This document shows positions 9,368 through 10,839 of a stretch of DNA of 64,000 nt, piece by piece. Position 1 is the stretch's first letter. Every line of letters starts with the position of its first letter. A program made the translations under genes and the position numbers. Under the pieces are notes generated by a model. The model was not told the origin of the DNA and did no database searches. It saw nothing but the letters and a program-made list of their open reading frames with translations. The stretch comes from Saccharibacillus kuerlensis DSM 22868 (GTDB lineage: Bacteria; Bacillota; Bacilli; Paenibacillales; Paenibacillaceae). Location: positions 1-64,000 of the forward strand of contig NZ_KB899277.1 of NCBI RefSeq assembly GCF_000378145.1, written 5' to 3'.

Positions 9368-10459
9368 TTAATCTTCATAACTCCAATGCTTGCTGCGCCG
9401 CTCCTTCTTGGTCTTCCTGCCCACTCCGGCAGGATGTCCGGAAATGGATCGGCTTTTTTCTTTGCGTTCAAGAAAGGCGAGTTCACGCTGCGTTTTACGA
9501 TAGCCTGTCAATCGGCCGGCATCCAATATCCCGCTGTCAACCGCTTCAAGTACTGCGCAGCCTTCCTCCCCATCCCAAAGCTGCAGTTCACGCATACCGG
9601 GGGTATCGATCAATATTCCACCTCCGGGAAGAAGGAACATTTGACGGTGTGTTGTCGTGTGACGTCCACGGCTGTCGTCTTCCCGAATACCGCTTGTATG
9701 CTGCAGTTCGCTGCCCATCAGCCAGTTAGTAAGCGTGGATTTGCCGCAGCCCGATGTCCCAACCAGTGCGCCGCTTTTTCCTTCCCTGAAATAAGAGGCT
9801 GCGGCCTCCATTCCCTCACCGGTCTGTGCACTGACGATATGAATTGGCACTCCGGGCGCTGCAAGCGAAACGTCAGCCAGTGCACGAAGACGAAAATCGG
9901 CGCTGCATAGATCGGCTTTACTCAGCAAAATAACAGGCTGCGTTCCCGCATTCCAAGCCATAATCAGATAACGCTCCAACCGACGGATATTCAGATCAAA
10001 ATTAAGTGACGTGACTAAAAACAGGACATCGATATTTGCAGCGATAATCTGTTCTCTGATAGGCGTACCTGCAGCTTTACGGGAAATGATACTCCGGCGA
10101 GGCAGCACACCATGGACACGGACACGCCGTTCGCCGGGAAGCAGTTCGGCCGCCAACCAGTCTCCGACGGCAGGGAGATCCGTTTCCTTTTCAATCAGAT
10201 GCCGCAGCCGTCCGCTGGTTTCGCCCTTATATTCGCCGCTGCCGGTCGCGACTTTGAATTGTTGGCCGTAATCCGCCGTCATACGTACAGGTAGAAGTCC
10301 TCTCTCTTCAAAGCCCGTTTCCTTCCAAACCTCTTTCCAATGATCATCCCAACCATAAGATTCGGGAAATGCCATAAAGTTCTTATAATCATTTGAAGAT
10401 ACAGATGACGATAATATACTAGAAATATTTCGTTCATTTTCATTTGTTGTTTTATTCAT
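9368..10459 (-). CDS. RsgA-like ribosome-associated GTPase lacking the zinc-knuckle segment
   Basis: RsgA/YjeQ proteins are circularly permuted GTPases that test 30S subunit maturation. The 363-residue protein has an N-terminal OB-like region, G4 (LLSKADL, residues 179-184), G1 (GTSGCGKST, 234-242) and G3 (DTPGMREL, 285-292). In normal family members some 27 residues with a C-x5-C-x-H motif separate the G3 block from GCAV. Here WDGEE runs straight into GCAVLEAVDSG near residue 299, so only one of the four zinc ligands remains. The frame is intact, so this is a deletion and not an assembly frameshift. GGAGG five bases before ATG sets the start. The leader has a terminator and a small ORF. It is probably a paralogue, not the housekeeping copy. 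Confidence 0.85.
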   Translation of the reverse strand: MNKTTNENERNISSILSSSVSSNDYKNFMAFPESYGWDDHWKEVWKETGFEERGLLPVRMTADYGQQFKVATGSGEYKGETSGRLRHLIEKETDLPAVGDWLAAELLPGERRVRVHGVLPRRSIISRKAAGTPIREQIIAANIDVLFLVTSLNFDLNIRRLERYLIMAWNAGTQPVILLSKADLCSADFRLRALADVSLAAPGVPIHIVSAQTGEGMEAAASYFREGKSGALVGTSGCGKSTLTNWLMGSELQHTSGIREDDSRGRHTTTHRQMFLLPGGGILIDTPGMRELQLWDGEEGCAVLEAVDSGILDAGRLTGYRKTQRELAFLERKEKSRSISGHPAGVGRKTKKERRSKHWSYED

Positions 10460-10542
10460 GTTTACCTCCGGAAAATGGGGTTTTGATAAATTGCAGCTCA
10501 ATTCACCGACTCTCCCCTGTACGTTCCGATTGAAAAGCACAC

Positions 10543-10571
10543 AAAAAGCCGGGGAGAACACTCTCCCCGGC
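10543..10571 (-). terminator. Intrinsic terminator in the leader of the RsgA-like gene
   Basis: GCCGGGGAGA, loop of four, TCTCCCCGGC (10-bp perfect stem), then five T on the minus strand. It lies between the leader ORF and the GTPase gene, about 85 bases before the latter's ATG, so it would stop transcription before the gene unless an alternative fold forms. Confidence 0.85.
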
Positions 10572-10575
10572 TGTC

Positions 10576-10627
10576 CTGCCGATGCACAACCGCTTTAGCA
10601 TCTAAAGGGTCATACACAGATCGGCAG
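10576..10627 (-). promoter_or_regulatory. Structured segment before the leader terminator
   Basis: On the minus strand CTGCCGAT and ATCGGCAG (8 bp) enclose an inner hairpin CTTTAG-ATG-CTAAAG (6 bp), immediately upstream of the terminator. The late part of the leader ORF (CTCTC...CCGGC) is partly complementary to the terminator's 5' arm. Together these can form mutually exclusive structures. Confidence 0.55.
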
Positions 10628-10703
10628 TCAGACATCATCCGCAAGCGAAAAAGCTTTAGAATACTACTCTTCCGTCTTTAAAAACAAGAAGACAGAAACG
10701 TAT

Positions 10704-10775
10704 TCAGTCCGTTCGCATCGCCGGAAGTCGAGAGAGTTTGCGACTAGTCCACACAATCGAATGTAAAGTACGCAT
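10704..10775 (-). CDS. 23-residue leader peptide (putative)
   Basis: An ATG preceded by AAGGGAGAG opens a 23-codon frame ending in TGA: MRTLHSIVWTSR then KLSRLPAMRTD. It starts about 30 bases after a strong promoter and ends before the structured segment and terminator. Position, ribosome binding site and complementarity of its last codons to the terminator arm fit a regulatory leader peptide. No homology is claimed and the peptide itself may have no function. Confidence 0.5.
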   Translation of the reverse strand: MRTLHSIVWTSRKLSRLPAMRTD

Positions 10776-10809
10776 AGCTCATCTCTCCCTTCAGCGGTAT
10801 TTGCCACTC

Positions 10810-10839
10810 ATTCTAGCCGAGCACAAAAAAGGTTGTCAA
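10810..10839 (-). promoter_or_regulatory. Promoter of leader ORF / RsgA-like gene
   Basis: On the minus strand TTGACA (10834-10839), an 18-nt spacer and TAGAAT (10810-10815). The -35 is a consensus hexamer and the -10 is five of six. Confidence 0.75.

Follow-up and report, generated by a model that had tools for sequence, protein, structure and literature searches.

The locus studied here raises the question of why a GTPase gene of the RsgA type should be preceded by a short open reading frame (ORF) and a transcription terminator, and whether the progress of a ribosome on the former could decide what happens at the latter. The window, i.e., the entire 64,000-nucleotide stretch of DNA that was analysed, is derived from the soil bacterium Saccharibacillus kuerlensis DSM 22868; part of a 16S rRNA gene, in minus-strand orientation, lies at its edge (positions 1-202). 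The leader under consideration occupies positions 10460-10839 and is read on the minus strand, as are all of its elements described below. It starts with a predicted promoter at 10810..10839 (TTGACA-18-TAGAAT, matching the consensus at 11 of 12 bases), followed by a leader ORF of 23 codons at 10704..10775, which encodes MRTLHSIVWTSRKLSRLPAMRTD before its stop codon and possesses its own Shine-Dalgarno (SD) sequence, GGGAGAG, at 10783-10789. Further downstream, direct reading reveals a nested stem, CTGCCGAT/ATCGGCAG with CTTTAG/CTAAAG inside (10627-10620 / 10583-10576), which is also present in the predicted fold, and then a putative intrinsic terminator at 10543..10572, consisting of a G+C-rich hairpin (10572-10547) and a U tract. 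The GTPase gene, whose SD sequence GGAGG at 10465..10469 was likewise identified by direct reading, extends over 9368..10459 with its ATG at 10459, and specifies an RsgA-type paralogue of 363 residues without the zinc-binding segment. A sequence-only reading of this DNA had listed the promoter, the 23-codon ORF with its own SD, the nested stem, the terminator and the GTPase gene with its SD, and all of these were recovered where it had placed them.

The 264-nucleotide leader folds with a predicted energy of -103.7 kcal/mol, compared to a mean of -74.8 kcal/mol for 200 shuffles (z -6.3). A search of the whole window against Rfam at gathering scores returned no leader family match, and at E values up to 0.1 no match was obtained in the paralogue leaders of 15 loci; by these searches the leaders of the window and of the 15 loci do not correspond to a riboswitch, a T-box or another Rfam leader. 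A symmetrical terminator DNA pattern, outside of which the window hairpin itself falls, gave zero matches in the own genome.

The GTPase domain PF03193 scores 169.8 bits in the gene product (cut-off 30) and TIGR00157 scores 102.6 (cut-off 100), and the solved structure closest in sequence is that of RsgA (6h4d). A canonical rsgA gene is present on contig 2 of the same genome, behind a reading frame that we take to be the end of a PASTA-type kinase, and its product is 33% identical to the window GTPase. In a tree of 29 canonical proteins and 36 paralogues, the latter chosen from 84, the two sets separate at 100/100, with the window GTPase on the paralogue side. This split, together with the canonical copy elsewhere in the genome, rules out a canonical Bacilli RsgA orthologue, and by its sequence the window GTPase is a dedicated RsgA paralogue rather than the housekeeping copy. 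The paralogue side also includes, again at 100/100, copies from a Streptomyces plasmid, Listeria, Enterococcus, a Lysinibacillus plasmid, Roseomonas, Vibrio (a long entry, translated from an internal start) and a KSB1 MAG. Matches were obtained in 186 of 398 Bacilli genomes at E values up to 1e-45, and in 80 of 398 Bacillota genomes at E values up to 1e-40. Of note, the Listeria record (L227) is labelled as a plasmid but, at 2.9 Mb, is probably a chromosome, and on the Lysinibacillus fusiformis plasmid (L228, 1462-2984) the paralogue is located directly upstream of a fosfomycin-resistance-type gene (fosM).

The zinc motif CxnCxHxnC is absent from the window GTPase; it is present in 83 of the 84 Bacillota paralogues compared and in six of seven further copies, the Vibrio entry being the one without a match. 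Relative to L012, the gap at the zinc ligands measures 28 residues and is in frame. By descent, the window GTPase belongs to the clade but appears to have lost its zinc-binding feature; the gap may be real or may stem from an error in the assembly, and the function of the protein could suffer from it. Many paralogue copies outside the genus carry a TTG start behind a very strong SD sequence (AGGAGGAAT), and in such copies the weak start codon may contribute to the control.

Absence of the ORF and the terminator from relatives had been named by the sequence-only reading as an observation that would count against its interpretation. Both elements are conserved, as is the promoter: in the window and nine close orthologues from the same genus, a TTGACA and TAnnAT/CT promoter, the upstream ORF (uORF) layout behind a purine-rich SD and an equivalent terminator hairpin were each found in 10 of 10 leaders. 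The leader peptides themselves are weakly conserved; Ser-Ile-Val occurs within residues 6-9 in nine of the ten genus leaders, and the pN/pS of the leader ORF is 0.63-0.68. A covariance model returned one strong match in each of the ten genomes whose leaders had been used to build it, and which therefore match by construction, and no strong match in the other six of the 16 genomes of the genus that were searched, the three extra matches having E values of 0.35-0.92. In those six genomes (L021-L026) the close orthologue is missing; they possess a more distant paralogue, the leader of which is different and has no terminator, e.g., MVTYQFFRSHKPYMTNFKSGVVSG; the L022 paralogue groups with the Listeria copy in the tree.

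Across the Bacillota, a single fixed rule for a uORF of 12-35 codons with an SD returned such a uORF in 145 of 165 paralogue regions, compared to 23.4 expected from shuffles, and found none at the remaining 20. The same rule identified a uORF at one of 30 canonical rsgA loci (and a terminator was present at five of the 30), a control that lacks matched context since canonical rsgA follows other coding sequence at a short distance. Of 139 paralogue upstream regions, 86 contain a strong terminator within 350 nt, compared to 2.3 expected from shuffles. This count is based on uncorrected script-called gene starts, several of which are wrong (L067, L069-L081 and some others), and some of the terminators in it may be those of the gene located upstream. 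With regard to sampling, 80 regions were hand-picked for spread, L041-L081 and L162-L187 represent the best-scoring loci returned rather than a random draw, and seven gene starts were set by hand when the leaders were read. When the same scan was applied to the seven further copies, the Listeria copy was seen to possess a clear leader and the Enterococcus copy a possible one; nothing convincing was found for Roseomonas and Vibrio, and no leader for the Streptomyces plasmid, Lysinibacillus and KSB1 copies. From one family to another the leader peptides vary, whereas the RNA logic persists. Two tandem terminators between the uORF and the gene are frequent in Paenibacillaceae leaders (L042-L066, L082-L100), and at locus L076 (2696-2903) a purine riboswitch match overlaps a below-threshold guanidine-I match on the same strand.

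The RNA logic referred to here involves three segments of the window leader. Segment 1 (10770..10798) covers the leader SD region, including the SD itself, and the start codon, segment 2 (10715..10742) is the end of the leader ORF (CTCTCTC ... CCGGC), and segment 3 (10562..10572) is the terminator 5' arm, AGCCGGGGAGA. The partial complementarity between the ORF end and the terminator 5' arm, proposed from the sequence alone, was borne out by a duplex energy of -17.9 kcal/mol compared to a swap mean of -12.1 kcal/mol. The leader SD region was found to pair with the ORF end as well, an element absent from the earlier reading, so that segment 2 may pair alternatively with segment 1 (1:2) or with segment 3 (2:3).

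Both pairings are supported by comparison among relatives. For the 1:2 helix, tested in a 13-pair version composed by hand from the sequences, the alignment of the ten genus leaders has 86% paired cells, 10 cells changed on both sides and a covariation of 0.248 versus 0.149 when shuffled, values that none of 500 shuffles reached; 65 of the 500 shuffles did reach the count of five pairs in which both sides had changed, and 215 reached the number of pair types. When the partner was slid by 1-3 columns, all 1:2 values fell, except for pair types at +3, which were equal and where covariation was 0.202. Furthermore, a swap test in which segments were reassigned between leaders was performed on 43 divergent leaders, kept from 79 in which a terminator follows the uORF, on the basis of less than 60% peptide identity (scored without gaps), with manual selection of the uORF in L015, L020 and L052, and L056 dropped. 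This yielded a z of -7.3 for 2:3 and -11.0 for 1:2, neither being reached by any of 20000 reassignments, and the outcome was the same with 34 leaders retained under a stricter divergence cut. The controls (1:3, 2:gene, 3:gene and 2:middle) were null, with z between -0.5 and 1.0, and 2:3 was weaker than the swap mean in eight of the 43 leaders. These comparisons indicate that the pairing of the ORF end with the terminator arm co-evolves.

A corresponding arrangement is seen in leaders that are devoid of a terminator. Leaders in which the gene SD could not be recognised, or in which the spacing was unusual, were excluded, the gene SD being sought separately for nine rows, which left 42 leaders, or 33 after removal of similar peptides; this set retains L056, whose uORF is doubtful, and L174, whose energy is outlying. 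In the 33 nonredundant leaders, where the gene SD lies within segment 4, the pairings 1:2, 2:3 and 3:4 were each reached by 0 of 20000 swaps, and the control pairings 1:4, 1:3 and 2:4 by 18200, 1477 and 16454 swaps, respectively. Individually, 19 of the 33 leaders beat their own swap mean for 1:2, 25 for 2:3 and 28 for 3:4. The Listeria leader is, by eye and by its fold, a short version of this terminator-less kind. These leaders display an erm-like layout in which the gene SD is hidden, which suggests that attenuation is translational in many relatives.

It might be argued that the hairpin is a plain premature terminator that constitutively dampens transcription, the ORF being incidental. Such a reading would be in line with the weakly conserved leader peptides and with equilibrium folding of the complete leader, which retains the terminator at 0.96-0.97 in all three ribosome states computed. 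It is nonetheless very improbable, as it does not account for a uORF at 145 of 165 paralogue loci (versus 23.4 by shuffles) and at only one of 30 canonical ones, for the co-evolution of 1:2 and 2:3, or for terminator-less leaders that retain the uORF and hide the gene SD instead. If the leader is indeed a switch, its retention of the terminator at equilibrium means that antitermination must be kinetic, being decided during transcription.

We consider it probable that the leader is a ribosome-stall attenuator of the drug-resistance-leader type, with a transcriptional output here and a translational one elsewhere. The attenuator logic of the sequence-only reading is thereby strengthened by the conservation of the leader and by the co-evolution of the ORF end with the terminator arm, and it is completed by segment 1 and by the translational variants. 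From sequence-based evidence, i.e., the leader elements, their conservation, the competing co-evolving pairings and the paralogue clade, we infer the following kinetics. During normal translation, the ribosome would reach the stop codon and cover segment 2, upon which the terminator (3:4) would form and the gene would be off. A ribosome stalled within roughly the first 12 codons would release segment 2 from segment 1, and the released segment would pair with the terminator 5' arm before the 3' arm exists, allowing RNA polymerase to read into the GTPase gene. On a leader free of ribosomes, the gene should be held off by 1:2 in this genome, a step that is doubtful for some relatives.

The scheme was modelled by folding the leader with ribosomes at various positions. 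In a strong-mask model, in which RNA polymerase is placed at the terminator loop and all RNA up to the ribosome is masked, the probability of 2:3 in the window is 0.58-0.74 for codons 5-12 and at most 0.02 from codon 14; under a wider definition of segment 2, values of 0.19 and 0.33 remain at codons 14 and 16, respectively. Averaged across 79 leaders, the probability rises from 0.27 with no ribosome to 0.53-0.54 for codons 1-8, then drops to 0.26 at codon 14 and to 0.00 at the stop. In a milder model that masks the ribosome alone, window 2:3 is 0.57-0.58 at codons 1 and 3, 0.03-0.18 at codons 5-7 and 0.35-0.41 at codons 8-10. The earlier suggestion that an early stall frees the ORF end is thus upheld by the strong-mask model for codons 5-12, with later positions covering the segment, and is clear in the milder model only for codons 1-3 and 8-10. 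These ribosome-position results are the weakest computed links of the case.

Without a ribosome, window 2:3 is 0.03 in the milder model and 0.16 in the strong-mask model, in which the mean of the genus leaders is 0.40; in six of the ten genus leaders (L013, L015, L017-L020) it already amounts to 0.53-0.79. In those six, 1:2 does not clearly hold off 2:3 according to the model, so some of these relatives may fail to keep the gene off when the leader carries no ribosome, and our confidence in the stall-attenuator reading is lowered for this reason. The same observation bears on a different proposal, namely that the leader serves autoregulation or the sensing of ribosome quality, with faulty or slow 30S initiation or elongation altering leader occupancy in the absence of any drug and matching the GTPase to a defect in subunit assembly. 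In its favour are the product, a GTPase of the 30S-assembly type, the TTG behind a very strong SD with which the gene begins in many relatives, and the six genus leaders that favour 2:3 when ribosome-free. Against it, the low ribosome-free 2:3 of the window leader implies that poor initiation should keep the gene off here, and we regard this proposal as unlikely.

The nature of the signal has to be considered against a further alternative, i.e., an attenuator of the trp type in which the leader senses amino acid starvation through charged tRNA and tunes the GTPase to nutrition. The arithmetic of the competing segments would be identical, and Thr and Val are, by eye, abundant in Paenibacillus-type leaders. 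However, inspection by eye of the leaders examined revealed no conserved run of a single codon, the peptides vary between families while the RNA logic is constant, the GTPase gene is not biosynthetic, and there was no match to a T-box or other Rfam leader, all of which render this alternative quite unlikely. Membership of the trp-type attenuators was rejected, as the leader peptides, inspected by eye, lack a regulatory codon run for a pathway product.

For the ribosome-stall attenuator, the likeliest inducers would be antibiotics, or compounds acting like them, that halt ribosomes during elongation when the peptide is only a few residues long. Three considerations point to such elongation-stalling antibiotics: the logic of the leader, which requires a stall a few residues into the peptide; the precedents of HflXr and of a Streptomyces RsgA pair, which are discussed below; and the dipeptides IV or VV, which recur at residues 4-12 in 28 of 83 leader peptides (9.7 in shuffles), an exploratory count for which the motif was chosen after looking and in which some uORFs are doubtful. 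The recurrent IV/VV recalls the stall sites of Erm leaders, and it is this likeness that points to the inducer.

As to the product, the RsgA paralogue probably helps small subunits or stalled ribosomes to cope; both the inducer and this protective role are what we infer from the findings above. The presence of similar switches in many relatives suggests that the GTPase may be an overlooked ribosome-protection factor, and the co-evolving leader segments that precede this RsgA paralogue across many Bacillota flag it as a likely new factor of ribosome protection or rescue. It also appears that one regulatory idea can shift between transcriptional and translational output, with peptide and RNA sequences being replaced. 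More tentatively, the whole paralogue clade, which is Bacillota-wide and includes Streptomyces and proteobacterial plasmid records, might represent a dedicated antibiotic-response, 30S-directed GTPase that is made upon ribosome stalling and that clears drugs from ribosomes, recycles them or matures them anew, having long been under leader-peptide attenuation in Bacillota with outputs and peptides repeatedly replaced between lineages. This broader reading, to which we lean somewhat less than to its opposite, is weakened by the copies from Streptomyces, Lysinibacillus, Roseomonas and KSB1, for none of which a leader was found.

Stall-sensing leader-peptide attenuators often precede genes that protect the ribosome against drugs, such as those for Erm, ABC-F and HflXr proteins. 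At the level of individual segments, the terminator-less relatives resemble the ermC-type attenuators in that the gene SD is hidden by 1:2 together with 3:4 and freed by 2:3. They differ from them in their target, an RsgA paralogue rather than a 23S rRNA methylase, and the window version differs in acting on transcription. Translational attenuators of the ermC type are described in the accessible part of PMC10219788. The vmlR leader of Bacillus subtilis combines transcription and translation attenuation of a resistance factor but, unlike the window leader, controls an ABC-F protein, according to the portion of PMC9226507 that was available.

Control of an RsgA paralogue in connection with antibiotics has a counterpart in Streptomyces coelicolor, where the RsgA/EngC pair SCO6149 and SCO5211 is mentioned among WblC-activated genes and their paralogues, the transcription of the two differing in a tetracycline-linked manner, with the first named appearing to be the activated one (PMC7157823, in the sections available). 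The homologue on the Streptomyces plasmid falls in the same clade as the window protein. In contrast to the window, the WblC/WhiB7-dependent RsgA paralogue of S. coelicolor is controlled via a transcription factor and not a leader, as far as the same sections of PMC7157823 indicate, and our scan found no uORF before the Streptomyces plasmid copy. The open-licence PMC full texts, a scope outside of which most subscription papers lie, yielded no account of an RsgA gene under the control of a leader, and the names rsgA, yjeQ and engC have zero occurrences in the available part of PMC8632094.

The closest parallel is that of hflXr (lmo0762) of Listeria monocytogenes, in which HflXr, a ribosome GTPase, is under uORF attenuation; as in the window, its leader combines a uORF and a terminator with an antiterminator and an anti-antiterminator, and its target is a ribosome-associated GTPase that represents a second copy beside another (PMC6310831, as far as accessible). 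The two systems differ in that the hflXr product belongs to the HflX family, acts on the 50S subunit and splits ribosomes, that the hflXr leader peptide has 14 residues with an RLR motif (which is, by eye, absent from the window leader peptide), and that induction and resistance were measured for hflXr, again according to the accessible part of PMC6310831. By its architecture, the window leader is, as its sequence indicates, an attenuator of the drug-leader type, and what is new compared to these systems is its target, an RsgA paralogue.
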